From assembly GCA_963204995.1 (NCBI GenBank), contig CAUJKL010000806.1, positions 1-48,464 on the forward strand: a DNA stretch of 48,464 nucleotides, in the 5' to 3' direction. The notes under the pieces were generated by a model. The model did not search any database. It saw only the letters and a program-made list of their open reading frames with translations, and was not told where the DNA came from. Each line of letters starts with the position of its first letter. The first letter of the stretch is position 1. Shown piece after piece: positions 2,333 to 39,105 of the stretch. Origin of the DNA: Planctomycetota bacterium (GTDB lineage: Bacteria; Planctomycetota; Planctomycetia; Pirellulales; Pirellulaceae). Both the position numbers and the translations under genes were made by a program.

Positions 2333-3631
2333 ATGTCATCCACCATTCACCCATTCGATCAAGATATCGACGACAACACGGAGTGGGACTCGCCCATGTT
2401 CCGGCTGGCTCAACAGCAGTTCTTAAAAGCCGCCGAGATCATGTCGCTCGACGAAAACGTTCGCGACCGACTGCTGTTCCCCCAGCGATCGCTAACCGTC
2501 AGCTTTCCGTGCCGACGCGATGAATACGCGGAAGTCGAGACGGTCTTCGGCTATCGTGTGCAGCATGTACTAACGATGGGACCAACCAAGGGCGGTATCC
2601 GCTATCACCAAGACGTCAACCTGGGCGAAGTATCGGCACTCGCGATGTGGATGACTTGGAAGTGCGCATTGATGGAGTTGCCGTTCGGCGGTGCGAAGGG
2701 CGGCGTGAGAATCGATCCCACGAAACTATCCCGCTCGGAACTACAGCGGCTCACGCGGCGCTATACGATGGAGATTACGGATATCATCGGGCCCGATCGC
2801 GACATACCCGCACCCGACATGGGAACTAACGAGCAGGTGATGGCCTGGATCATGGACACCTACAGCCAGCAAGTCGGTTACGCGGTTCCTGAGATCGTCA
2901 CGGGAAAGCCCGTCGTCCTGGGCGGTTCCCTCGGCCGAACGGAGGCCACCGGGCGCGGACTTGTGTATCTGATCTGCGAAGCCGCGAACCACATGGGAAT
3001 GGATCTGAAGAAATCGACTGCCGTCGTGCAAGGTTTTGGCAATGTAGGCAGCAACACGATTCGTTTTCTGGCCGAAAGCGGCGTCAAAATCATCGGCGTC
3101 AGCGACGTCTCGACTGGTCTGCACAACCCGAATGGTCTGGAAGTGAATTCGCTACTGGAACACATCGACCAGCATGGAATTCTAAAAGGCTATGCGGGCG
3201 CAAGCGAAATCTCCAACAGCGAGTTGCTGGAATTGAAGTGCGACATCCTCGCGCCCTGTGCTCTACAGAATCAGATCACATCGAAGAACGCGAGTAAGCT
3301 GAACTGCCGCATGTTGGCCGAAGGTGCCAACGGCCCGACGACACTGGAGGCAGATCAGATCTTGATCGACAAGGAAGTGTTTATCGTGCCTGATATCCTC
3401 GGGAATGCGGGCGGCGTCACCGTCTCCTATTTCGAATGGGTGCAAGACACACAGAATTTCACCTGGTCGCTGGAAGAGATCAACGATCGCCTTCACAAAA
3501 TCATGGTCGGCGCATTCAATCGCACGGTGCTCCGCAGCCAACGCGATAAGCTCGACATGCGCACCGCCGCCATGATCGAAGGCATCCAGCGCGTTGCCAA
3601 GGCCAAACTGTTGCGTGGGTTGTTCCCGTAA
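2333..3631 (+). CDS. gdhA: Glu/Leu/Phe/Val dehydrogenase (glutamate dehydrogenase)
   Basis: GPTKGGIRYHQDVNLGEVSALAMWMTWKCALMELPFGGAKGG, VQGFGNVGSN; start at 2333 favoured by upstream AAAGGGA; ORF also open from 2312. Confidence 0.93.
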   Translation: MSSTIHPFDQDIDDNTEWDSPMFRLAQQQFLKAAEIMSLDENVRDRLLFPQRSLTVSFPCRRDEYAEVETVFGYRVQHVLTMGPTKGGIRYHQDVNLGEVSALAMWMTWKCALMELPFGGAKGGVRIDPTKLSRSELQRLTRRYTMEITDIIGPDRDIPAPDMGTNEQVMAWIMDTYSQQVGYAVPEIVTGKPVVLGGSLGRTEATGRGLVYLICEAANHMGMDLKKSTAVVQGFGNVGSNTIRFLAESGVKIIGVSDVSTGLHNPNGLEVNSLLEHIDQHGILKGYAGASEISNSELLELKCDILAPCALQNQITSKNASKLNCRMLAEGANGPTTLEADQILIDKEVFIVPDILGNAGGVTVSYFEWVQDTQNFTWSLEEINDRLHKIMVGAFNRTVLRSQRDKLDMRTAAMIEGIQRVAKAKLLRGLFP

Positions 3632-20101: not shown

Positions 20102-20293
20102 CGGGATCTTATTAACAAGGGAGAGACGAATGCGAGCCCCTTCCATAATCGGCCATTTGTCGCACTTGGACAAGGCGTCATCGCGGCCGTAACCATTTTG
20201 GTCGCGACGCAATCTGGAACCTCGGAAGTCAGATCAACAGGGTAAATCTAACGGCTTGGGACAATGTAACGGTCGATACTGGCAGCCGTTTCG

Positions 20294-22045
20294 TTACGGG
20301 GGCATGCCGAGCTCGGCGCGTAATGCGGAAGCACTCGCGGTCGTAACGTGATAGATTCGGAACGAGTACCCCGCCATGCCGACCGGCTGCCACCTGTCGT
20401 AGAAGTCGTATTGGCCGTCCTCACGAGTGAGGTGACCCACATCGACCGCGAACCAGCCCGGTTGAGGACCGTTGCGCTCGTCACTTCGCCTGTCTGGATC
20501 GTCCGTGTAGTAGGGCGGTTTCGGCGACGCTTCGATTCCGGCAGCCTCGGGTCGCACCAGCCGCAAGTACGAAGCGACTCGCAACGGTCTCGCTTCTGGA
20601 TGTCGGTCGTACCACGCTTTCAAGAACAGCAAGTCTTGCCCCCAATCAATGTTGCTGGATGTCAGATGCCGATGCCCGTTCAGCGGGCCACTAACGGATT
20701 CGTTGAAGTACGACAAGGCGTGTGGGTAAATCCACAAGCTGCTGACGATCGACCAAGTCAACGCCAGCGAAGTCAGCATTCGCCAAATCCGAGAACGACC
20801 TCGCGCAAAAACGCTGCCGACGCTAAGGAACAGAAAGGGAAACGCGGGCAGCACGTAACGGAAGTGCTTGTTCAATCCCGTCTGCGAACTGGCCAGCAGA
20901 ACGACCGCGATCATCGGCAGAGCCCACGGCAAGGCGCTGCGAATCGAGGTGTTTCGTGAAACACTCGCGACCAGTGCCATGACGATCAAACACCATGTTC
21001 CTAGTGGAATCTTGATCGCAGCGGCGTACAGGTAATAGTACCACCAGCCCTCGTCGCGCCACTGTCCGCGCAAGTACGACCAACGCGGGCGGTCAAAGTC
21101 CCACTTCTGAAGGTCGATTCCCTGAACGAAATCTTCCGGAAGCGGCACCGGAAACGCACCGAGCGAGGTTCCCGCAAACCGATTGCCGCTCCAATCCGTC
21201 GCTTCCTCGGACACAACTCGGCCCGATAACGACTTACTGACAAATTCATAATCGCCGAGTCGCTTGCATGTCCCATCGAAGCCATACGTCGCGTTCAACA
21301 CCAGAACGGCAAGCGCAAAACTGACGCAGAGTAAGACACACTCGCGCAACCACACTCGCCAATTCACTTGTGCTTCAAGTACTCGACTGAGAGCCCAGAT
21401 CAACGGCACCAGTCCGAACAGAATGATCCAACTTGCTTTGATCGCTAACGAGAATCCAATGCAACATCCCAGTACGTAGGTCAGCGACCAACTTGGATCG
21501 CGCAACCAATGCCGCAGCACATAGAAGGTTGTCACGCCCAACGCAGCAGCTGCCGCATCGCCCGTCATCATCTGTCCGTGGGCGAGCATGTTGGGCGAGA
21601 AACACCACCACGCCAGTACCGCCAGTCCTGCACTCGCACCGTGCAATTCATAAGCCCATCGATAACAAATCCATCCACCGAGCAGACTGAACGGAATGCA
21701 CATCCAGCGTGCGACCGCCAGACAGTTGAATGCGTAGGTCCCATTGGCATCGACGAAGTCTTGCCCGATCGTCCACTCAGCGCGCTGTCGTGGGTCGCTC
21801 AATATCGTAACCTCCGGCATGTTCGGCTGCATGGCCAGCACGGGGAGCGTCGCCCACATCCGCAACAACGGCGGATTCACCCGAAACGTATCGAAGCTGC
21901 CATATTTCCAATGAACCAGACCGGATGGCAACAGCCCCACCTCCGTCCAAGCAAAGCTGTGTCGCGATGCACCCCATGCCAGCAGTCCGGCGTGAATGAG
22001 TAGCGTCGCCACGATCAGTTTGCCCCGGAGTCGATGCATAATCAC
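20294..22045 (-). CDS. Multi-TM PMT/ArnT-like glycosyltransferase family protein
   Basis: Multiple TM helices; SGLVHWKYGSFDTFRVNPPLLRM; HLTSSNIDWGQDLLFLKAW; clear paralog of 24581..27448 N-terminal part. Confidence 0.8.
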   Translation of the reverse strand: MIMHRLRGKLIVATLLIHAGLLAWGASRHSFAWTEVGLLPSGLVHWKYGSFDTFRVNPPLLRMWATLPVLAMQPNMPEVTILSDPRQRAEWTIGQDFVDANGTYAFNCLAVARWMCIPFSLLGGWICYRWAYELHGASAGLAVLAWWCFSPNMLAHGQMMTGDAAAAALGVTTFYVLRHWLRDPSWSLTYVLGCCIGFSLAIKASWIILFGLVPLIWALSRVLEAQVNWRVWLRECVLLCVSFALAVLVLNATYGFDGTCKRLGDYEFVSKSLSGRVVSEEATDWSGNRFAGTSLGAFPVPLPEDFVQGIDLQKWDFDRPRWSYLRGQWRDEGWWYYYLYAAAIKIPLGTWCLIVMALVASVSRNTSIRSALPWALPMIAVVLLASSQTGLNKHFRYVLPAFPFLFLSVGSVFARGRSRIWRMLTSLALTWSIVSSLWIYPHALSYFNESVSGPLNGHRHLTSSNIDWGQDLLFLKAWYDRHPEARPLRVASYLRLVRPEAAGIEASPKPPYYTDDPDRRSDERNGPQPGWFAVDVGHLTREDGQYDFYDRWQPVGMAGYSFRIYHVTTASASALRAELGMPP

Positions 22046-22070
22046 TCGCCAGTTCGCAACTCGTACGACA

Positions 22071-22123
22071 GCTCTCCGAAGCCGTCGAACAACCCATTAG
22101 GAGCATCGACGGCTTCGGAGAGC
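22071..22123. repeat. Palindromic element, perfect 18-bp arms
   Basis: GCTCTCCGAAGCCGTCGA (22071-22088) / TCGACGGCTTCGGAGAGC (22106-22123). Confidence 0.9.
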
Positions 22124-22192
22124 CGTCGCACAAATCCCTCGCACGACAATCCCAGTAAGCTCATCCCCTACGACTCCTAATCCCAGTTGACC

Positions 22193-22204
22193 GGGGGGGG
22201 GGGG
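22193..22204 (+). repeat. 12-nt poly-G homopolymer
   Basis: gaccGGGGGGGGGGGGcgtag about 70 nt upstream of the 22273 CDS. Confidence 0.9.
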
Positions 22205-22272
22205 CGTAGCATAACATACACTCGGGCAGATAAGGGACAAGCGGACTAACGAGTTTCATTGAGGGTAGATTC

Positions 22273-22719
22273 GTGGCAGACAAGATTGGCAGGAATGGGA
22301 AGTGCATCGAACTTCTCTTCACGGTAGCGGTCTTATGGTTCCAACTCCCATGCACTGCCCAGGAGCAAACTCGCAAACCACTGCTACCCACCCGCACAGT
22401 CGAATGCCCTCACTGCGGTCGTGACGTCCCAACAACCGACAACCGTTGGCCAATTCTGCTGCTGGGCTTCGCCGGCCAAGGAGCCTTCGGTGCGCGATTC
22501 GTGATTCAATGGATTGCCTCGGAACGCGCGAAAACCAGCGTCATCCCCGAGCTGTTCTGGTGGTTCTCGATGACCGGCGGTGTGTTGTTGTTCTTTTACG
22601 GTTGGGCAATTCTCGCCTGGCCGATCGTGATCGGGCAAGGTCTCAATTGCTTGATCTATGGCAGGAACTTGTTCTTCGTGCGACGATCAGCAGTCGATCA
22701 AGAATCGAGGGCCACGTGA
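22273..22719 (+). CDS. Lipid-A-disaccharide synthase N-terminal-domain (LAB_N)-like membrane protein
   Basis: GFAGQGAFGARFVIQWIASERAKTSVIPELFWWFSMTGGVLLFFYGW..GQGLNCLIYGRNL. Confidence 0.8.
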   Translation: MADKIGRNGKCIELLFTVAVLWFQLPCTAQEQTRKPLLPTRTVECPHCGRDVPTTDNRWPILLLGFAGQGAFGARFVIQWIASERAKTSVIPELFWWFSMTGGVLLFFYGWAILAWPIVIGQGLNCLIYGRNLFFVRRSAVDQESRAT

Positions 22720-23357
22720 CAGCGGCAGATGTTTGGATCGTAAACGCCGGATACAAAACCGGCGCGGCGCAAGTCGCCAGCCTGCTGGGCGACTACCAAC
22801 TCGCCGCCGTTTCGGCGACGGAGCTTTCCTCTTTGAGCGATTGCGAAGCGCGGCCTGCGGTCTTGATCGCGGTGATCGATTCGTGGCGAAACGATGGCAA
22901 ACGGCTCCTGGATGTTCTCACGCTTCATGCGAGTGAATTGCCGATTGTCGTCATCGATCAATCGTTCAACACGCCCCTTGCGCGGCAGCTCGCGGCACAA
23001 GGCATTCAAGACTACCTTGGCCCACGTGACTTGGACTCCGAGCGTCTGACGGTCTGTGTGAGCTTCGCCGTCGTTCGGCATGGCCACCAGTCGGTGCGAA
23101 AGCTGCGTCCGCTGCTCGCCGCCCGACCGGACTTGGACGTACACGCACTCCGACAGATCGTGAACGCCTTGCGTCCGAGCGAGCGTGCGGTCTTCGACCT
23201 GTTAATCACATGCTACTCGAACGCAGAACTGGGCGTCCGGCTCGGCAAGTCTCGGCAGACCATCATTAACCAGATTGGCGGCTTAAAGCAGCATTTTGAC
23301 GTTAACTCGCGCGAAGAGTTGATCCTCATCAGCATCCTCTGCCTGCCGGAAGCGTAA
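22716..23357 (+). CDS. Response-regulator-like protein: divergent receiver + LuxR-type HTH
   Basis: GTG start overlaps upstream stop (GTGA); C-terminal LRPSERAVFDLLITCYSNAELGVRLGKSRQTIINQIGGLKQHFDVNSREELILI. Confidence 0.7.
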   Translation: MTAADVWIVNAGYKTGAAQVASLLGDYQLAAVSATELSSLSDCEARPAVLIAVIDSWRNDGKRLLDVLTLHASELPIVVIDQSFNTPLARQLAAQGIQDYLGPRDLDSERLTVCVSFAVVRHGHQSVRKLRPLLAARPDLDVHALRQIVNALRPSERAVFDLLITCYSNAELGVRLGKSRQTIINQIGGLKQHFDVNSREELILISILCLPEA

Positions 23358-23582
23358 CCATTCCACCAATGTAGCCATCACGCTCCGCCGTGATGAGCCT
23401 CACGTTCGAGTTCCACAGCAACCCGACGACATTTTGCACTTCCGACCTCCCAGTTCGGTCCACATCACGATGGGGCGCGATGCCTCCAGAAGAAACTTTG
23501 CCGAGTAGTTACGGTAACTATTGCAACTTGAGAATGCGATCCTATCTTTACGGTTATCGCGGCACTAACAAGCGAGCAGACC

Positions 23583-24584
23583 TTGAAACTGATCATCCAA
23601 ATCCCGTGCTACAACGAAGAGGCGACGCTGGCCCAGACGCTGGCCGATCTCCCAACGCACATCGCCGGGATCGACGAGCTTGAAACGCTGATCATCGACG
23701 ACGGCAGCACCGACGCCACGCTGATGGTGGCTCGCGAAGCGGGCGTCGATCACATCGTCCGTCATCGCCGCAACCGAGGGCTCGCGGCGGCCTTTGCCAC
23801 CGGCCTCGATGCGGCCCTGCAAGCCGGTGCGGATATCATCGTCAACACCGACGCCGACAATCAGTATCGCGGTGCTGACATCCAGCAATTGATCGCACCG
23901 ATCCTGGCGGATCGCGCCGACCTGGTGATCGGTGACCGGCAAACTTGGATTTGTCCTCACTTTTCATTGTCCAAACGAACTTTGCAGCGCCTTGGGAGCC
24001 GATTGGTCAGTCGGCTCGCCGGCCAGCACATTCCCGATGCGGTCAGCGGCTTCCGCGCGATCTCGCGCGAGACGGCGATCAAGCTGCACGTCGTGACCTC
24101 GTTTAGTTACACGATTGAAACCGTCCTGCAGGCGTCGCAGAAGGGGCTGGCAATTGAAAGTGTCCCGATCACAACTAACGATGCGACAAGACCATCTCGG
24201 TTGTTCAAGAGCATTTCGCACTTCGTGTTCAAATCGACAGCCACAATCGTTCGCGTGTATGTGATGTACCACTCGCTGGCAATATTTATCTGGCTTAGCA
24301 TCTTGTTGATGGTTGGGGGCGTGATTCCCATCTTTCGCTTTCTTTGGCTATTCGCCAATGGTGACGGCGACGGGCACACCCAATCGCTGGTAATCGGTGG
24401 CGTGCTGTTTCTTGCAGGATGGTTTGCAGTTGCCTTTGGTGTTATCGCCGAATTATTGTCCGGGAATTGGCGCCTATTAGGGATGGTATTGGAGCGAGCT
24501 AGACGTTCCCAGGGGCTACGATCCTCACTCTTGGATATCCATAGTTGCGATCAAGACGACACATGGGATAGGCGTGCGCCATGA
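23583..24584 (+). CDS. Glycosyltransferase family 2, polyprenyl/dolichyl-phosphate sugar synthase type
   Basis: IQIPCYNEEATLAQTLADLP, LIIDDGSTDATL, NTDADNQYRGADI; C-terminal TM helices. Confidence 0.92.
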   Translation: MKLIIQIPCYNEEATLAQTLADLPTHIAGIDELETLIIDDGSTDATLMVAREAGVDHIVRHRRNRGLAAAFATGLDAALQAGADIIVNTDADNQYRGADIQQLIAPILADRADLVIGDRQTWICPHFSLSKRTLQRLGSRLVSRLAGQHIPDAVSGFRAISRETAIKLHVVTSFSYTIETVLQASQKGLAIESVPITTNDATRPSRLFKSISHFVFKSTATIVRVYVMYHSLAIFIWLSILLMVGGVIPIFRFLWLFANGDGDGHTQSLVIGGVLFLAGWFAVAFGVIAELLSGNWRLLGMVLERARRSQGLRSSLLDIHSCDQDDTWDRRAP

Positions 24585-27448
24585 ATAGCGAAGCAGTTTC
24601 AACGCGGGGAATGAGTCGCTGCACGGTCGCGTTTTTGGTGGCCGTACTGCTGGTCCACGCTGGCATTCTTGCCTACTCGGCGACGCAGATGAGCGCCGTT
24701 ACGGATGAACCTGCGCATCTTGTTGCGGGACTCAGTCATTGGAAGTTTTTTCGCTTTGATTTGTACCGAGTCAATCCACCTCTCGTTCGCATGATCGCCG
24801 CATTGCCAGTCCTTGCGTTGCCGCACGAAGTTGAGTGGCCGGCGCATGGTGCATCGCCTAGTGATCGGATTGAGTTTCCAATTGGTACATCATTCATGAA
24901 GGAGAATGGTGCTAGGTCTATGGACTTGCTGATATGGGCTCGCTGGGCATGTATTCCATTCAGTCTCTGTGGGGCTGTGTTTTGCTTCCTTTGGTCGCGA
25001 GAAATCTGGAATTGTGACACCTGCGGAGCAGTTTCTCTTTGTCTGTGGAGTTTTGATCCAAACGTGCTTGCACACGGCACCCTGATTACCCCAGACTGTG
25101 CCGCTGCAGCATTTGGGATCGGGGCTGCGTATTTCCATTGGCGATGGATGCGTAAGCTCACGTGGAAACGTGCCTTCGTTGCCGGCGTTCTATTGGGTAT
25201 TGCTCTGCTAACTAAGTCGACTTGGATAACGCTTTTTGCGTTCTTGCCCGCCATCTATTTGGCGAGTACGATCGTGCGTCGAACTATCCGGCGGCCATTT
25301 TGCGACGGTCTCTCTGAGACTTCAGTCATACAGCTAAGTGCAATTCTGCTGATTGGCCTGTTTTGCCTCAATGTCGGTTATGGCTTCGCTGGCTCATTTC
25401 AAGCCCTAAAGGATTTTACGTTTGTCAGCCAAGTTTTAAGTGGTTCCGCCAGCGATCAGATTGACGGCAATCGCTTTCGAGGCACATGGGTGGGCACAAT
25501 CCCAGTACCGCTGCCGAAAGACTATTTAATTGGAATCGATGTTCAGAAGCATGACTTCGAAGAACATATGGGGCGATCATATCTGCGAGGTACATGGCAA
25601 ACAACGGGATGGTGGTATTACTATGTCTATGCGTTGGCGATCAAAACGCCAATCAGTTCGATACTATTGTTCGGAATGTCCTGTCTCTGGTTTTGCCGTT
25701 CTAGCAGGAACGATGTTACGATCGGGCCTCAAGGGACACCGGAGCACGTCTTTGCTGGTGTCTTATTACTTGGTTACGCAATTACGATTGTCGTCCTCGT
25801 GAGTAGTCAAGTTGGGTTTAATCGGCACGTGCGTTATGTGCTTCCAGCCCAGCCCTTTTTGTTCGTATTTAGCGGGCTATCTGGTCGCTGGCTGAAGCGT
25901 ATCCCCGAACATTGTGAGTTCACGCGGAAAGTTGGACTGCTACCTCCGTTTCGATCGACCGTAGCGAGCGGCTTTGTTATTGGCTGTCTCTGCTGCACAT
26001 GCATCTCGTCGGCAATGTCGCTTCCTCATCAGCTCGCTTACTTCAATGCAGCGGTTGGCGGTATGAATGATGGGCATCGACATCTTTTGCACAGCAACCT
26101 TGACTGGGGACAGAGCTTGTTGCAGTTGGACGCCGCGTTGGCAAGACCCGATCGTGTTGGGAAGGTCGCGATTGCGTATTCAGGGTCCTATAATCCAGAG
26201 TGGATCGGAGCACGCGTCAGAACGATTGATTGGTATCGTCGACCGACGCCCCTGAGCGGGTTTGACCGCGTCGCGATTAGCGCGAATATCTTGCAAGGGC
26301 AAGGACGCGCGTATCCGTGGTATCGTCGCCCGCTTCCCGCTGCGGCAGAGTTCGAGGAATTCTACCGAGGTCGAGAACCAATTGAGATCGTTGGCGGTAG
26401 CATTTTTATCTTCGATACCAAGCCATACATTGACTTTTGGCTATCGCACAAGGATGCCGAATCGACAGACGTGGATTCGCATGGTGATGCCGTTTCCGAG
26501 GATGAGCCAACAACGACTTCGCTAACTCTTGCCAGGATTATTGGCTCAAGGGAGCCCTCGATTTCGGAGTGCTTGCACATTCTTCTTTTGTATGGCTTCG
26601 GCGAAACAGGCATGAATTCGCCGAGGACGGGGGCGGAAGCGTTGGAGTTCCTTACCAACGAGCAAGCCGGTATGTCGGTGTTTGGGACATCCCCCCTCGT
26701 CGAGACACGCCATGGCATTCGGTTTAAGTTGTCCGAATCGGCTGCTGATAATCGAAGCAAGGTCGGGGAAGCGCACCGCGATCAATGCCTGGGTGTCTTT
26801 GCGTCGTTGAAGCTGCCTTTGACGACACCGGTGCGAACAAGTAAACGAGATTACACATTCCAGGACATGCTCAACGAATCGATTGCGAATTTCACGTACC
26901 ATCAAAGCGAGCTGCCTTGGACGATGCAGGCGTATGTGCATTATGTGTCGCCCGCGAAGCAGTGGACGAATCGCTTCGGAGTAACGACGACCTTTTCAGA
27001 TCTTACTAATGAAATTCTCGATCGTGGGCTGGCCGGCCAGAGCTGCGCTGGAACACACGTTTTGGATGCTGTTGCGAGTGTGGTTGCCGCCGATGATCAC
27101 AGTCCGATCCTGGATCGTGCAACGCGAGCTAGGGCACGTTCATTCCTTGTTGACACAATGGAACACATTCGCGCGAGCCAGCAGGACGACGGATCTTGGA
27201 CTCATCTGTTGTCAACGTCAGCGAGTACGGAAAATGAAAGCGATATTAGCCGCAAGCTTCTTGCTACCGGCCATATGGCCGAGTTCCTCCAGCATCACGC
27301 GACATCCGATACGGAACTTATCGATAACGCCAATGAATGGTTACGTCTTTTTCTGTCTTCGGACTACTCGGATACTTCGCAGTTTTCAGTTTGCCCCCTG
27401 ACGCATGCTCTACGAGCAGTTCACTATAGGTTGGAACCAATTAATTAA
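24581..27448 (+). CDS. PMT-like glycosyltransferase fused to ~330-aa soluble C-terminal domain (possible alpha/alpha toroid)
   Basis: VTDEPAHLVAGLSHWKFFRFDLYRVNPPLVRM, multiple TMs, HSNLDWGQSLLQL; C-terminal IRASQQDDGSWTHLL...RKLLATGHMAEFL; ATGA overlap with upstream GT2. Confidence 0.82.
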   Translation: MNSEAVSTRGMSRCTVAFLVAVLLVHAGILAYSATQMSAVTDEPAHLVAGLSHWKFFRFDLYRVNPPLVRMIAALPVLALPHEVEWPAHGASPSDRIEFPIGTSFMKENGARSMDLLIWARWACIPFSLCGAVFCFLWSREIWNCDTCGAVSLCLWSFDPNVLAHGTLITPDCAAAAFGIGAAYFHWRWMRKLTWKRAFVAGVLLGIALLTKSTWITLFAFLPAIYLASTIVRRTIRRPFCDGLSETSVIQLSAILLIGLFCLNVGYGFAGSFQALKDFTFVSQVLSGSASDQIDGNRFRGTWVGTIPVPLPKDYLIGIDVQKHDFEEHMGRSYLRGTWQTTGWWYYYVYALAIKTPISSILLFGMSCLWFCRSSRNDVTIGPQGTPEHVFAGVLLLGYAITIVVLVSSQVGFNRHVRYVLPAQPFLFVFSGLSGRWLKRIPEHCEFTRKVGLLPPFRSTVASGFVIGCLCCTCISSAMSLPHQLAYFNAAVGGMNDGHRHLLHSNLDWGQSLLQLDAALARPDRVGKVAIAYSGSYNPEWIGARVRTIDWYRRPTPLSGFDRVAISANILQGQGRAYPWYRRPLPAAAEFEEFYRGREPIEIVGGSIFIFDTKPYIDFWLSHKDAESTDVDSHGDAVSEDEPTTTSLTLARIIGSREPSISECLHILLLYGFGETGMNSPRTGAEALEFLTNEQAGMSVFGTSPLVETRHGIRFKLSESAADNRSKVGEAHRDQCLGVFASLKLPLTTPVRTSKRDYTFQDMLNESIANFTYHQSELPWTMQAYVHYVSPAKQWTNRFGVTTTFSDLTNEILDRGLAGQSCAGTHVLDAVASVVAADDHSPILDRATRARARSFLVDTMEHIRASQQDDGSWTHLLSTSASTENESDISRKLLATGHMAEFLQHHATSDTELIDNANEWLRLFLSSDYSDTSQFSVCPLTHALRAVHYRLEPIN

Positions 27449-27465
27449 CTCAAAGGAGATGAACG

Positions 27466-27765
27466 ATGAACAAGTTTTCACTGCTAATCAGATATGGCGT
27501 TGTAATTGTTATTGCAATCGCTGCAATCTCATTGCAACCTGTCGTGGGAAAGAGTGTTCCCGACAGCGTCGCTTACGAAGTTCGCGGAGGTTGTGTTGGC
27601 GCGACGGTAGATACCTGCACGGGCGAAGCCTGTGGAAACACTTCCTATGTTAAACCCTTGAGCAAGGGTTCGGAGCAGCCATGTGGTTCAACAATTGAGT
27701 GTGGCGGAACTGTTGAGTGTGCCGATCGTGCCAGCGGGACTGAAAGCTGTGGTGGTAGTCCGTAA
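27466..27765 (+). CDS. Small Sec-exported Cys-rich peptide with RGG-C junction
   Basis: Signal/TM RYGVVIVIAIAAISLQPVVG then AYEVRGGCVGATVDTC...; 7 Cys; preceded by AAGGAG. Confidence 0.75.
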   Translation: MNKFSLLIRYGVVIVIAIAAISLQPVVGKSVPDSVAYEVRGGCVGATVDTCTGEACGNTSYVKPLSKGSEQPCGSTIECGGTVECADRASGTESCGGSP

Positions 27766-27805
27766 GTAGGGCTCGGTACTGCATGCGTCAGGTGGGATTT
27801 TTAAG

Positions 27806-28990
27806 ATGTTGTTTGATGAAGCACAAATGCCCTATGGGCTCGTTCTTAACGTGGCGTTGATTTGCAGCATGCCGCTCAATGCTTCAGCTCAGGATCGAAA
27901 CACGAACGGACCGAGTAACCGGTGTGGGCCAAACGCGCTCCTCATGTTGCTACGGATGAATAATGTGCCGGTTACAAACGACCAGGTGTTTGCTATCGAA
28001 TGTAACGGTGCGGGTGCAAGTATTGGCGACTTGCGCGACGTGGCGGCGGCGTTTGGTCTTCCGGTGGAGGTGCGAAAGTACGAGACGGACCAGTGGCGCT
28101 CAGTCCCTCTGCCAGCGTTAGTGCATGCTCCGTCGGGCGAGGATACGTTCCACTATCACGTTTGGTACGATCGCAGCTCCGATGCCGTTCTCGCACTGGA
28201 TGGTACGACGGGCGAGCAGTTTCAAATCTTGGAGCAGCGGTTGCCGGACTTTTGGACGGGCTATGCCCTTGTGGACCCCACTCCGTCCCGACAGTACTGG
28301 CAGACCATGCTGGGGTTTGGCCAGCGATTCTCGGCTGGCATCCTGTCACTTAACATACTTTTCGTCATCGTACTCTTGAATTATTGTTTTCGTGAGTGGC
28401 AGCAGAGAATGGTCACTCGATGTCTCGCTGTTATACTTTTGTTCTCGTCATCTAGCACACTCGCGACCGATAATCAGCACGTACAAATTGCCGAGCAACC
28501 TCATGCAATTTCAGATCCGTGGCGTGATCCCGACCACGGTGGAGTGAACGCGCTCTATGTCTACTTTTCACTTCACGACCTTCGCAGCGATTACCGTGCG
28601 TTCCTGCAATCGTTACCACCTGGGAAACTTCCGTCAGAACTACCAGAGATGTTGCAGGCAGCAACCGCCTGTGGGCACCCTCTTGCGGCGCGACAGTTAA
28701 CTGCTGACGACTTTACGGATATGCCTCTGCCTGCAATCGTTCATCTTGACGGGCTCGAATATGGGAAGGGCGCTTATATTGTCGTCACTCGACGGTTTCC
28801 AAGCGACTTGGAATATGTAAACGGCCCGACTGCATCAGTCGGTTATATGCGGTATGAGGACTTCTTTCGCCGCTGGTCCGGCGTTGTATTGGTGAAATCG
28901 GATGGGCCGTCGCGTTGGCTTCTGGCCCTGTCGTTTGTCTGTGGCAGCGTGGCGGCAGCAGCCTTTGGTCTTGTCTTTAGGCGGTTATGA
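27806..28990 (+). CDS. Membrane protein with tandem C39-like peptidase domains (second degenerate)
   Basis: Domain 1 NRCGPNALLMLLRMNNV..FHYHVWYDRSSDAVLALDGTTGE; domain 2 GGVNALYVYFSLHDLRSDYRAFLQSL lacks the Cys; signal/TM segments and C-terminal TM. Confidence 0.72.
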   Translation: MLFDEAQMPYGLVLNVALICSMPLNASAQDRNTNGPSNRCGPNALLMLLRMNNVPVTNDQVFAIECNGAGASIGDLRDVAAAFGLPVEVRKYETDQWRSVPLPALVHAPSGEDTFHYHVWYDRSSDAVLALDGTTGEQFQILEQRLPDFWTGYALVDPTPSRQYWQTMLGFGQRFSAGILSLNILFVIVLLNYCFREWQQRMVTRCLAVILLFSSSSTLATDNQHVQIAEQPHAISDPWRDPDHGGVNALYVYFSLHDLRSDYRAFLQSLPPGKLPSELPEMLQAATACGHPLAARQLTADDFTDMPLPAIVHLDGLEYGKGAYIVVTRRFPSDLEYVNGPTASVGYMRYEDFFRRWSGVVLVKSDGPSRWLLALSFVCGSVAAAAFGLVFRRL

Positions 28991-30234
28991 TTATGTGGAT
29001 GTGGTCTAATAAACGATTCCCGTTGTTGGTGTTTCTACTCGGAATTGGTCAATTCACGTGCGCGCAAGAACAAACTTCCCCCGCCGCAGTTCTGCAGGAT
29101 GTTGAGTCTGCGCTGACTGCGCAAGGCGAGGCGATCTCTGTCTGTAACGTTATTACGTCAAGCGAATATCGTTATCGAAGCGGGCCGGCGCGCACCCGAA
29201 CAACTGCGGCAAAGGTGGACCTTCATATTAACAACGGTAGGTTTTATCAACTGCGTGAGTCGACGATAACGCGCAAAACCGGGGCAGTTAGTGTTCGCGA
29301 AAACGAGTACTCGTTTGACGGCAGAGTATTTTTCATCGGCCATCCAAGCAAGACAGGTGATTCGACTTTATTGACCGTCTTAGGCGAGAATCCGTCCGGT
29401 CGCGGAGTTGATGAACGACTGGTGAAGAACGAGTACTTACATGCTGCCGGATTCTTTGTTCCGGAGACACCTTTGCAATGGCGCGACGAACGTCCTGGTT
29501 CTCTCGTCGTTCGCAATATCAAGCTTGGTTTAGTAACGAAGGTATCCGTGAACGGGAACCTAGTGACGTTGGCCGTCGAGTCGCCCGACGAGCTAGTGCT
29601 GGAGAGTCGCAAGGTAGATTTGGCGGCGTTCGAGGCGGAACTGCGCTCGTTGGATTCTGACCCGAATTACATTGAGCAAGAGCTGACTGCGATCAAGTCG
29701 ACCCAGAAGGCCGAACCAATAAAATATAGTGAATTTGTCCTGGACGCATCGATCGGTTACGCCTTGGCCCAGCACAAGGAAACAACGGCTGATGGACGTC
29801 TCAGGTTCTCCGTGACGGCTAGCGAGCATCAAAAGTACGCTCTTGCGGACACTAACACCGCAATTTGGCTGCCCAAAACGTGCGCCATTCAATCCTATTT
29901 CGTCCCCGACACATTTTCCCAGCACGCGGAGACTCCGTATGTTGTTGCTACTGCTCACCTCGATTCATTTTCATTTTCACCACGAGAGAATGAGTTTGCA
30001 TTAGTTTACGAGACGGCAGGCACTCTCGTTGGTGATCGCAGTTCTGCCGAGGCTAAGAACGCTCCCGGCGGGCAGATCAACTTTACAGTGGATGCGGACG
30101 CTGACGCATTGAGGTTTGCGGCCGACAGTGCAAGATCATGGAGATCTTTGTTTATTGTTCTCAATATGCTGCTCTTCATGTTTTTGGGAATCGGCGTTTA
30201 TTTTGTACTTCAGAAACGCAAGAACGCGACCTAG
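28987..30234 (+). CDS. Exported protein with C-terminal membrane anchor, unknown function
   Basis: N-terminal signal VFLLGIGQFTCAQ; C-terminal TM LFIVLNMLLFMFLGIGVYFVLQKRKNAT; ATGA overlap with upstream gene. Confidence 0.75.
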   Translation: MIMWMWSNKRFPLLVFLLGIGQFTCAQEQTSPAAVLQDVESALTAQGEAISVCNVITSSEYRYRSGPARTRTTAAKVDLHINNGRFYQLRESTITRKTGAVSVRENEYSFDGRVFFIGHPSKTGDSTLLTVLGENPSGRGVDERLVKNEYLHAAGFFVPETPLQWRDERPGSLVVRNIKLGLVTKVSVNGNLVTLAVESPDELVLESRKVDLAAFEAELRSLDSDPNYIEQELTAIKSTQKAEPIKYSEFVLDASIGYALAQHKETTADGRLRFSVTASEHQKYALADTNTAIWLPKTCAIQSYFVPDTFSQHAETPYVVATAHLDSFSFSPRENEFALVYETAGTLVGDRSSAEAKNAPGGQINFTVDADADALRFAADSARSWRSLFIVLNMLLFMFLGIGVYFVLQKRKNAT

Positions 30235-30266
30235 GGCAGGCGTTCACTTCGACGAATGGCGATGTC

Positions 30267-31328
30267 ATGAACTTGCACACGAAATCGTTCGCCTACTTGC
30301 TTCTGCTGTGGCACGTCTCGCTTGCAAGTGACGCCGCAGAGCGGTTCGCCGCAGGCAGCTGGGAGAGCGTTGAACGGTATCACTGCGACATTGAGATTGA
30401 AATCCCGCAATTGGATGGCACGCCCGCTGAGGGCCGCAAGTACTTTCTACGGAAAAACATCGGAATGTCGGGCACGGGTAATTTCTATCATTATCTTGGG
30501 CATTACCACGAAGGCGATTCATGGAGACTTGAACCAAGGAACCAGGAAGTGATTATTACGGCGGGTTTGCGATTTCACCAATGGAAATTCAATCGGCAGT
30601 TCTCGTATCGCGAGATGAAGATCGGCGATCCGCTCCCCGGAACCTTAAGTGGCGATACCTTCTTCATGGTTTCGCCCTGCTGGACATTACGAGATTATGA
30701 GGTTCCTCGCGACCACCGAAGGGGCTCTGAGACCGTGTTCGTGCTGAGTGAAGCGATTAAGTCCCCCGACTACGTTGCGGCGGATGAATTGTCCGAGATT
30801 AACGGTTTTGTCTGTAGGCAGTACGCCGCGATAGACGGTTCCGATACGATATGGCTGGTTGCCGATCGCGAGCCGTGCTTAATGAGGAGAGAATTCCGGG
30901 AAGCCAAAACGGATGTCCTATTGCAACGTATCGATGTCCAGCGGATCAAAGAAGTTCAAGCCGGGTTATCGATGCCAATGGAGTACCAAAGTTTGGTTTT
31001 CGATCCCGTTCGGGGCGATTCCGTGTCGCCAATTCGACGAGCACATTTCCGCGTCTTGGATTTTAGTCTCGATGACGACGTGCCTGACGATATCTTTGTT
31101 GTTAGAATTCAGCCCGGAAGCATACAGACTACTGACGATGGATTTACGCAAGTTGCGGAAGGAGGTGAGGAGTTATTTTCTGAACTCGTCACTCACTTGC
31201 GCGACGTTGACCGAATTCGGCCCGCTGTTCCAAAGACACCTCGGCTCGCGCTCGCGGCGTGCTTCATTAGCGGGTTTCTTTTGGTTAGTACCGTCTCGTT
31301 CCACCGCAGGCGTTTGTTAAACAGTTGA
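30267..31328 (+). CDS. Exported protein with C-terminal membrane anchor, unknown function
   Basis: Start MNLHTKSFAYLLLLWHVSLASDA (signal); C-terminal LALAACFISGFLLVSTVSFHRRRLLNS. Confidence 0.75.
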   Translation: MNLHTKSFAYLLLLWHVSLASDAAERFAAGSWESVERYHCDIEIEIPQLDGTPAEGRKYFLRKNIGMSGTGNFYHYLGHYHEGDSWRLEPRNQEVIITAGLRFHQWKFNRQFSYREMKIGDPLPGTLSGDTFFMVSPCWTLRDYEVPRDHRRGSETVFVLSEAIKSPDYVAADELSEINGFVCRQYAAIDGSDTIWLVADREPCLMRREFREAKTDVLLQRIDVQRIKEVQAGLSMPMEYQSLVFDPVRGDSVSPIRRAHFRVLDFSLDDDVPDDIFVVRIQPGSIQTTDDGFTQVAEGGEELFSELVTHLRDVDRIRPAVPKTPRLALAACFISGFLLVSTVSFHRRRLLNS

Positions 31329-31376
31329 TTGGACGTGTGCCGCTATACGCTCCGAAACATTACGAAATGTGTTGAC

Positions 31377-32369
31377 ATGGTTTTCGCAAAACCACAACTC
31401 ACTAGGCGAAGTGATCATGCACGATCCGGCTTCACGCTCATCGAACTTCTCGTCGTGATCGCCATCATCGGCATTTTGGTGGCGTTACTCTTGCCGGCGG
31501 TTCAAGCGGCACGCGAAACGGCAAGCCGGATGGAATGTGCAAATCATCTGAAGCAGATCGGCACGGCGATCTTGCTGCATGAAAACACGTACCGCCACTT
31601 GCCCACCGGCGGTTGGGGCAAGGAGTGGGCGGCATTGCCGGAGTTAGGGGTGGATGGGCGGCAGCCGGGCGGCTGGATTTTTAATGTGTTGCCGTTCATC
31701 GAGCAGCAAAGCGTCCACGATCTGGGTGGCATCAGTCCGGCGTCGCTGACCGCGAACGGCCAGCGCCTGCAAGCAGCTCTGTCGGTCATGCACTGCCCCA
31801 GCCGACGCGGCGCGGAACTGTTTGCGAATCAACGCACCTGGCAACCGCCCTCGTATCCGCTGGTCAACGAATTGGCGCGGAACGATTACGCCATGAACGG
31901 CGGCGATCGCGTCATGCTGTATGGTATCGGTCCCGCGTCACTTGCCGCCGCCAATACGTTCGCCTGGCCGGATATGTCGCTGGCCAACGGCGTTTGTTTT
32001 CAACGCAGCACCGTTCGGCTGGCGGAGGTCACCGACGGCACCAGCAACACGTATCTCGCCGGCGAAAAACACTTGCGGCGTGACCATTATTACAACGGGC
32101 AAGATCAAGGCGACAACGAATCGCTGTACAGCGGCGACGACCGCGACTTGATCCGCTTCACGGGGACGTCGAGTATCCCAACATTAAAACCGCTGTCCGA
32201 TGCCTTCGTTGCGGGGCAAGAGGGTTTGGTGTTTGGCAGCGCCCACGGTGCGGGTTTTCAAGTGGCGTTGTGCGATGGCAGCGTGCGTTTGATCGTGTAT
32301 CAAGTCGACCATGACGTGCATGGCCGACTGGGGAATCGCCACGACGGCCAACCGGTGGAGTTGCCATGA
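31377..32369 (+). CDS. DUF1559-type protein with prepilin-like N-terminal methylation motif
   Basis: SGFTLIELLVVIAIIGILVALLLPAVQAARETASRMECANHLKQIG; C-terminal FGSAHGAGFQVALCDGSV. Confidence 0.95.
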   Translation: MVFAKPQLTRRSDHARSGFTLIELLVVIAIIGILVALLLPAVQAARETASRMECANHLKQIGTAILLHENTYRHLPTGGWGKEWAALPELGVDGRQPGGWIFNVLPFIEQQSVHDLGGISPASLTANGQRLQAALSVMHCPSRRGAELFANQRTWQPPSYPLVNELARNDYAMNGGDRVMLYGIGPASLAAANTFAWPDMSLANGVCFQRSTVRLAEVTDGTSNTYLAGEKHLRRDHYYNGQDQGDNESLYSGDDRDLIRFTGTSSIPTLKPLSDAFVAGQEGLVFGSAHGAGFQVALCDGSVRLIVYQVDHDVHGRLGNRHDGQPVELP

Positions 32370-32377
32370 TGCTGCAA

Positions 32378-32493
32378 GTAGGCCGGAACAAGTCTGCGCA
32401 GTTCCGGCATCCGCCATACGCCGCACCGCTGCCGGATATGCCGCTGCCGGAGAGACCGCTGCCGGAACTGCGCAAAGCCTTGTTCCGGCCTAC
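32378..32493. repeat. Palindromic REP-like element with ~32-nt arms and internal CCGCTGCCGGA repeats
   Basis: GTAGGCCGGAACAAG-TC-TGCGCAGTTCCGGC (32378-32408) vs GCCGGAACTGCGCAAAGCCTTGTTCCGGCCTAC (32461-32493); CCGCTGCCGGA x3 between. Confidence 0.93.
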
Positions 32494-32875
32494 AGCCACC
32501 TTGTCAGTCGCGTGTGTGCTGGCCGTCATCATGCTGGTTGGATGTGGCGGAGGCGGGCCAAGAGAAGTGTTTCCCGATGTCCATTGCCGCTCGCCCAACG
32601 GCAAACGGCCGACGAAAATCATTCCACGCTGGAAGTTTGATCGGATTCACGAGCTGATTCTCGCTCACGTTCCCGCGACGGAAGAAGGCATGGACTTCAA
32701 AGAGTTGAAAGCCAAGGTGGAAAGCGATATCGCCGACGACGAGCAGAAGCGGCTCGGCAAAATCTCGTGGCTGACCGAGACGGTTACACTCGAGTTGGAA
32801 ACTCGCGGCGACTTAACCCGAGTTCCCGACAACAACACACCTCTTCCGAAACGGATCAGACGCAATGGATCGTGA
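32480..32875 (+). CDS. Small putative lipoprotein downstream of DUF1559 gene
   Basis: SVACVLAVIMLVGCGGGG lipobox-like; ORF open from 32366 but its first ~38 codons lie in the palindromic repeat; TTG at 32480 is a possible start. Confidence 0.6.
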   Translation: MFRPTATLSVACVLAVIMLVGCGGGGPREVFPDVHCRSPNGKRPTKIIPRWKFDRIHELILAHVPATEEGMDFKELKAKVESDIADDEQKRLGKISWLTETVTLELETRGDLTRVPDNNTPLPKRIRRNGS

Positions 32876-33110
32876 GCCTCAACATCCTGATTCAGACGAC
32901 GACATTCCTGTCGCCGAAGTGTCAAGCTGGCTAGAGTTCGGAGGCTGGACGACGCTGGCGCTGATTCCGATGTTGTATTTGGTAAATGGCCCGGCCGTCT
33001 CGCAGGACCAGCTCGTGGTTCGTTGCGGGTTGATTGCTCTCGCGATCATCCTCGGTCCTGGATTCACCGTTGCTCGCAAAGTCCGAACCACACGCACAGG
33101 CAATCGTTAG
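32865..33110 (+). CDS. Small hypothetical membrane protein
   Basis: 81 aa with two hydrophobic stretches; overlaps upstream CDS end. Confidence 0.5.
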   Translation: MDREPQHPDSDDDIPVAEVSSWLEFGGWTTLALIPMLYLVNGPAVSQDQLVVRCGLIALAIILGPGFTVARKVRTTRTGNR

Positions 33111-39008: not shown

Positions 39009-39105
39009 CAACGCTCACGAAATAACTTCCGCAAATCCAATGTCGCCATCACGCTCCGTCGTGATGATTGCGAGAAAAGCGGGGGAAGTTATTTCGTGAG
39101 CGTTG
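39009..39105. repeat. Nested palindromic element: 22-bp outer arms enclosing CATCACG/CGTGATG hairpin
   Basis: CAACGCTCACGAAATAACTTCC (39009-39030) / GGAAGTTATTTCGTGAGCGTTG (39084-39105). Confidence 0.93.

Follow-up and report, generated by a model that had tools for sequence, protein, structure and literature searches.

A small Cys-rich peptide encoded immediately upstream of a C39-type peptidase that is not part of an ABC exporter raises the question of how, and in which compartment, such a peptide could be matured. We addressed this question for a locus on contig C806 of G000, a draft planctomycete genome of 9.7 Mb; the contig was analysed over its whole length of 48,464 nucleotides and is referred to here as the window. 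Eight genes, all on the forward strand, occupy positions 23583–32875. The first (23583..24584) encodes a GT2 glycosyltransferase that resembles polyprenyl-phosphate-sugar synthases (Pfam/NCBIfam) and possibly makes the donor for the GT39 enzyme encoded next to it. This enzyme, a GT39 (PMT_2) membrane glycosyltransferase, forms residues ~1–610 of a 955-aa fusion (24581..27448), the remainder being a toroid domain (26420..27448). There follow the precursor of the exported Cys-rich peptide (27466..27765, 99 aa), an anchored periplasmic C39 protein with two C39 domains (27806..28990, 394 aa), two exported proteins with a C-terminal membrane helix, P415 (28987..30234) and P353 (30267..31328), a DUF1559 pseudopilin (31377..32369) and a putative DUF6958 lipoprotein (32366..32875) whose membership in the system is uncertain. 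The probable starts of P353 and of the DUF1559 gene are 30267 and 31377, the former reducing a 396-aa ORF to 353 aa. A preliminary description of the sequence had reported this gene set with ATGA overlaps at 24581/24584 and 28987/28990 and the small RGG-C peptide directly before the C39 gene; all of this held, and we add a third overlap at 32366/32369. Pfam and NCBIfam labelled the GT2, GT39 (PMT_2), C39 and DUF6958 proteins and the DUF1559 protein with its prepilin start, and gave no match for the peptide, P415, P353 or the last third of the 955-aa protein.

Upstream on the same strand lie genes for a small LAB_N membrane protein (22273..22719; PF07578, 85 bits) and a response-regulator-like protein with a LuxR-type helix-turn-helix (22716..23357), a paralogue of which (27% identity) precedes the second C39 locus of the genome (L119). 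LAB_N proteins are frequently found with GT2/GT39 glycan-modification genes. A divergent gene on the reverse strand (20294..22045) encodes a GT39-like (PMT-type) membrane glycosyltransferase, paralogous to the fused GT39, whose own membership in the system is uncertain. The operon showed no promoter or terminator signal beyond chance, and the window contained no tRNA.

The strongest companion of C39 across genomes was a ~400-aa protein homologous to the C-terminal end of the 955-aa ORF, which we therefore read as a GT39–toroid fusion; both the toroid and the glycosyltransferase part of this gene had been missed previously. Toroid-profile searches with neighbourhood extraction yielded 70 toroid loci in two mutually exclusive contexts, 27 of C39 type and 43 of pilus type; these two groups took in every full-length toroid locus examined. 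In the C39-type group, 26/27 loci had C39 and 26/27 had P353; GT39 was present in 10/27, Pfam adding one further locus, and the pilus-type partner never occurred. Toroid, C39 and LolA-like anchored protein stood together in 26 of the 27, most of them beside an exported Cys-rich peptide, and the expectation that homologues should co-occur in other genomes was met. Presence of C39 or P353 was the criterion for assigning a locus to this group. C39 itself led us to nine of these loci, and the toroid alone to most of the rest. Planctomycetes of several families, among them Singulisphaera acidiphila DSM 18658 (L097), carry C39-type loci, and in a phylum-wide sample all matches lay inside the class to which the window belongs. 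The order toroid, peptide, C39, degenerate C39, P415, P353 was shared by the window (with its toroid fused to GT39), S. acidiphila and two loci from another family of the class (L132 and L135, Planctomycetaceae-type).

The 43 pilus-type loci contained no C39, P353 or GT39. Their hallmark was GTC2, a long membrane protein adjacent to the toroid gene in nearly all and nearby in 43/43, with Flp pilins near in 25/43. This sister clade (L058, L060–L062, L064–L073, L075, L077–L085, L089, L090, L092, L093, L121–L126, L128–L131, L133, L134, L136–L138) sits beside the polytopic, ~550-aa GTC2, often near Flp pilins or other Tad-pilus genes, with GT2 close in several. That it acts in pilin glycosylation is no more than a guess, its function not being established. 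We considered GTC2 itself as a glycosyltransferase and could not substantiate the idea, having found no Pfam/NCBIfam match, no hhalign match to GT39 and no convincing PDB match.

The C39 protein of the window scored 64.6 bits against PF03412 (Pfam cut-off 22). By inspection it has its own signal peptide and a C-terminal membrane helix, and it stands alone, without ABC transmembrane or ATPase domains, as had been proposed. Its description as a tandem C39-like protein needed correction: domain 1 (residues 33–167) has the Cys/His/Asp triad, whereas domain 2 (residues 203–390) is degenerate, with Cys replaced by Gly, His by Ala and Asp by Asn. Every one of the 24 first or single C39 domains in the comparison retained the triad, two of them with Glu in place of Asp. 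In second domains, Cys was lost in 8/8, His lost or shifted in 8/8 and Asp lost in 7/8; for L019 the alignment of the second domain cuts at the Cys column, and its His occupies a shifted position. With first domains intact and second domains degenerate, the active/inactive pair is conserved across families. PF03412 matched just two stand-alone loci in the genome, the present one and one other, and no ABC-type C39. An ABC-type reading of the system was rejected, as both ABC-type relatives found (L023, L024) lacked the rest of the gene set. A C39 search of 60 relatives gave distant matches in eight genomes, and wider stretches around these matches revealed the gene set to be the common element; one scan of genome contigs with the C39 protein gave no match.

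The peptide gene of the window has a strong ribosome-binding site (AAAGGAG). Its first part (27466..27591) is inferred from the sequence to encode a Sec signal (residues ~1–28) and a double-glycine leader ending in VPDSVAYEVRGG. The C39 cut is predicted, on sequence grounds only, after residue 42, between VPDSVAYEVRGG and CVGA. The predicted mature peptide (27592..27762) would have 57 aa, beginning with Cys; all seven Cys of the precursor lie C-terminal of RGG. Small ORFs adjoining C39 and toroid genes elsewhere were built to the same plan, in which a short spacer separates a Sec-type signal from a stretch with many Cys; signal peptides were called by eye and hydropathy, without a trained predictor. 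Aligned on the glycine motif, the family gave V/L(-12) S(-11) x x [ED](-8) A(-7) x x [LIV](-4) x G(-2) [GA](-1), or in short V-S-x-x-[ED]-A-x-x-[LIV]-x-G-[GA]. The classic double-glycine leader consensus is LSxxELxxIxGG. The family consensus fits the double-glycine criteria (hydrophobic at -12 and -4, acidic at -8, G at -2, G/A at -1) and differs at -7, where classic leaders have Leu/Met and the planctomycete peptides Ala.

A strict form of the motif, [DE]x3[LIVM]xG[GA], was present in 15 of the 21 peptides, where shuffling predicted 0.43. The window peptide, with V instead of D/E at -8, is a looser member and is not among these 15. We also scanned all small ORFs blind to position, requiring a signal, the strict leader and ≥4 Cys. 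Positives came from 15/27 C39-type toroid loci, 0/43 C39-less, pilus-type toroid loci (716 kb) and 0/9 other stretches. Three loci encode two similar precursors each, L057 (3738–4160, 7137–7604), L076 (6294–6620, 7081–7518) and L120 (5311–5712, 7215–7616). Signal and leader are near-identical within all three pairs, whereas the mature parts diverge in L057 and L120. The association has exceptions. L095 has C39, and no peptide was found. L096 (10004–10400) has a peptide with CAELRGG before and ARGS after the putative cut, its Cys-rich part carrying on in another frame; this locus has a GT39–toroid fusion and a GG peptide, yet no C39 was found within 19 kb, and it is perhaps decaying or mis-assembled.

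Two sister loci in the same genome bear on the link between leader and peptidase. L119 (contig C132) has the order regulator, DUF1573, Cys-rich peptide, LolA-like protein, C39, GT39, DUF1559; L163 (contig C918) has DUF1573, LolA-like protein, Cys-rich peptide, GT39, DUF1559, and no C39. The exported L163 peptide (2738–3154) has 11 Cys, which come immediately after the signal peptide, and no double-glycine leader, so that leader and C39 are missing together. In L119, where C39 is present, the peptide leader is unclear, which weakens the correlation without reversing it. L163 also starts with a truncated ORF that has a CPHC thioredoxin-like motif. DUF1573 proteins (exported, Ig-like) recur in these variants and in L018 (L018:7633–8433, L119:7443–8666, L163:530–1630) and may be an optional partner.

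Within the 955-aa protein, PMT_2 scored 32.3 bits over the N-terminal part (cut-off 26.1). The same GT39–toroid fusion occurs in L096 (41% identity over 971 aa), making two genomes in all. Across 14 toroid sequences with 22–31% identity to the window, one Cys and five His were invariant; the full set is H53, H119, C209, H213, Q254, G258, W260, H285 and H329 (numbering of window 26420–27445). The structural model of the domain was helical (pLDDT 77, pTM 0.77), and its best fold matches had TM-scores of only ~0.42–0.47, none with E below 1e-3. We predict from this model an uncatalogued alpha/alpha-toroid family, its fold matches being weak and its chemistry not established. Weak fold and sequence matches and a QxxDGxW motif point to the fold class of terpenoid cyclases, prenyltransferases and complement thioester domains; any relationship to these toroids is distant, and the domain has its own invariant Cys and five His, is exported and has no family model. 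A third toroid family (G000:C878, L074:4764–6218; L087:6277–8181; L088:6447–8582) forms the C-terminal part of exported proteins of ~480–710 aa, at about one copy per genome across the order; these proteins had no Pfam match over cut-off.

An hhalign comparison (95.7%) showed P353 and P415 to be homologues. The P353 model, of low confidence (pLDDT 44), suggested a LolA-like beta-sheet, its top Foldseek match being PDB 3bk5 (probability 1.00, E 6e-3), an outer-membrane lipoprotein-sorting (LolA-type) domain. In contrast to that superfamily, P353 has a C-terminal membrane anchor and is fused to C39 in several genomes. Fusions joined C39 to P353, or a degenerate C39 to P415, and P353/P415-type domains fused to C39 or C39-like domains occurred in L014, L016, L020, L057 and L098. 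The claim that the anchored proteins are partners is supported by co-occurrence. The pseudopilin was confirmed as such (SBP_bac_10 domain 138 bits, prepilin N-terminus 35 bits), but its partnership is supported only in part. It belongs to a DUF1559 subfamily that accompanies GT39 genes, grouping with the DUF1559 proteins of L119, L163 and L018; because each of these lies directly behind GT39, the subfamily tracks GT39 more than C39. GT39 is rare in the genome (13 PMT_2 matches in 9.7 Mb) and lies within several kilobases of 10–11 of the 27 systems and of both C39 loci of the genome; GT2 genes occur in 6/27. Such proximity hints that some systems may involve glycosylation, on the evidence of gene linkage and fusions only. 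Neither GT39 nor GT2 was seen near the S. acidiphila system or near most others, so glycosylation is not essential to all systems.

Taken as a full model, a planctomycete cell-envelope peptide-maturation system is the likely reading of the locus; cleavage is inferred from sequence, and no cleavage, transcript or product was observed. Sec would export the small Cys-rich precursor and its signal peptide would be removed. The remaining double-glycine leader would then be cut after GG/GA by the membrane-anchored periplasmic C39, and the dead C39 domain often paired with it may bind or position the leader. The freed peptide of ~50–115 aa, mostly with 6–12 Cys, would fold in the periplasm, presumably with disulfides. 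The anchored LolA-like P353 and P415 may receive or escort it. GT39, sometimes with GT2, would act on the same substrate in ~40% of loci, the toroid domain being a putative periplasmic partner or enzyme of this glycosylation step. Export and leader removal rest on strong sequence evidence, folding on composition, and the last two steps on gene linkage and fusions only. The preliminary description had inferred Sec export and periplasmic maturation; this is supported by co-occurrence, the leader behind a Sec signal, the conserved triad and the joint absence in L163. The odd number of Cys in the window peptide (seven) and its deviation from the leader consensus at -8 count against the model. A secreted accessory peptide for competition or for the cell surface is the most likely product, its role not being established. 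A bolder reading, of a new class of envelope peptide system, combines two serial leaders (Sec, then double-glycine), an anchored active/dead C39 pair that cuts in the periplasm, and later modification by a novel family of toroid enzymes together with GT-C-type glycosyltransferases, an association that would be common to Tad-pilus loci; as one joint claim we hold it to be less likely than not.

What the peptide does can be read in two ways, neither of which quite persuades us. It may be antimicrobial, bacteriocin- or microcin-like, with P353/P415 or the pseudo-C39 serving self-protection or export. Class II bacteriocins and microcins typically carry double-glycine leaders; the processing genes are conserved while the small, Cys-rich peptides vary widely, the distribution is patchy and island-like, and some loci (L057, L076, L120) have two similar peptide copies. 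However, we recognised no immunity gene and no ABC exporter with C39, and the three related loci of this genome, in the window, L119 and L163, could equally well encode surface components. Conversely, the peptide could serve a structural or adhesive purpose on the envelope, as a disulfide-linked and perhaps glycosylated component placed there with the DUF1559 pseudopilin, a view on which we are similarly hesitant. It is favoured by GT39, GT2, LAB_N and the GT39-linked DUF1559 subfamily nearby and by the sister toroid clade in pilus-type loci with a polytopic membrane protein near in 43/43; planctomycete cell walls have also been described as rich in protein and cysteine. Against it, the distribution is patchy, neither same-genus relative has the system, and the fast divergence of the peptides is unlike a core wall part.

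It is unlikely that C39 leaves the peptide uncut, acting as a leader-binding chaperone or cutting another envelope protein such as the pseudopilin. Dead C39-like domains are chaperones in some type I secretion systems, and the targets of FapD, the C39 peptidase of the Pseudomonas functional amyloid (Fap) system, are still unclear (PMC5557850). But the triad is kept in 24/24 first or single domains, the leader occurs with C39 and is absent without it, and pseudopilins come with a prepilin leader of their own. That unrelated envelope genes were merely packed together by chance can be all but excluded: planctomycete genomes do have many genes for exported and DUF1559 proteins (76 DUF1559 matches in this genome), but the recurrent co-occurrence, common order, fusions and leader/C39 correlation contradict it. 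Anti-phage defence was rejected for want of a PADLOC match.

Among known systems, the preferred maturation model is closest to two. FapD is a C39 peptidase located in the periplasm, and secretion depends on its active Cys; the authors noted the lack of canonical C39 sequences in Fap proteins and described the periplasmic C39 class as uncharacterised (PMC5557850). Both systems, the planctomycete one by inference from sequence, have a periplasmic, Sec-exported C39 peptidase for Sec-exported substrates (PMC5557850). Fap, however, has the outer-membrane pore FapF and non-canonical substrates, whereas the planctomycete system has a canonical leader on short Cys-rich peptides, an anchored C39, often with a dead domain, and toroid and LolA-like partners that Fap lacks. 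On the window C39, the FapD model of NCBIfam scored 16.1 bits (cut-off 330), and ten locus proteins scanned gave no match to the FapF pore or amyloid-repeat subunits, so Fap membership was rejected. Double-glycine bacteriocin/microcin export (PCAT, type I secretion) is alike in leader consensus and C39 family. There, in contrast, an ABC exporter carries C39 at its N-terminus, where it acts on the side of the cytosol, and the leader itself serves as export signal; in the planctomycete precursors the leader comes after a Sec signal, and no ABC-type C39 was found in the genome. The system thus resembles double-glycine maturation but fails its defining feature, leader export by a C39–ABC transporter, and it may well be that the whole deserves a class of its own. 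In the literature searched (titles and abstracts, with few subscription journals covered), FapD was the only periplasmic C39 peptidase found described, and we found nothing on a planctomycete C39 or Sec-exported double-glycine system, nor any family model.

Because double-glycine leaders are normally sought next to ABC exporters, standard genome mining would miss this Sec-first version; a motif and gene signature are now available for finding such systems. The peptides stand out as candidates for the substrates of periplasmic C39 peptidases, which have been called uncharacterised as a class (PMC5557850), and the analysis exposes an uncatalogued exported toroid family with an invariant Cys/His set, found also in Tad-pilus loci. 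A full copy is present in S. acidiphila DSM 18658, a cultured strain whose genome is complete, which opens the idea to direct testing.

The locus had been judged AT-rich by eye and possibly acquired horizontally. Computation bore out the first point: 24581–31328, at 52.3% GC, is as low as any 6.75-kb stretch of the window, and GC3 is 0.53–0.58 there against 0.62–0.71 in the neighbouring genes measured, DUF1559 included. The AT-rich part spans ~24.1–31.3 kb and leaves out DUF1559 and the left-hand genes, as if a cassette from GT39–toroid to P353 had been set inside a host-like GT2-to-DUF1559 unit, which remains a possibility. The unit given earlier as 24581–32369 is part of a larger segment of ~12.9 kb (about 20186..33097), present in the window only and absent from both same-genus genomes. 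It is flanked by panD and a sodium:solute symporter gene, and these two genes are adjacent in L139 and L140, 58 and ~80 nt apart. Composition and these two empty sites support horizontal acquisition, with loss in both relatives not excluded. No direct repeats of ≥8 bases were found at the segment ends.

Two kinds of dispersed repeat were observed in the window. One pair lies at 32376–32494, inside the 5' end of the DUF6958 ORF, and has many copies in same-genus genomes; since the 5' part of the ORF is repeat, the true start of DUF6958 is probably downstream of the first start codon. The other, palindromic repeat, CATCACGCTCCGCCGTGATG, occurs at 23376–23395 and 39047–39066; short matches to its region number dozens in same-genus genomes, on both strands, and we class it as a REP-like element.
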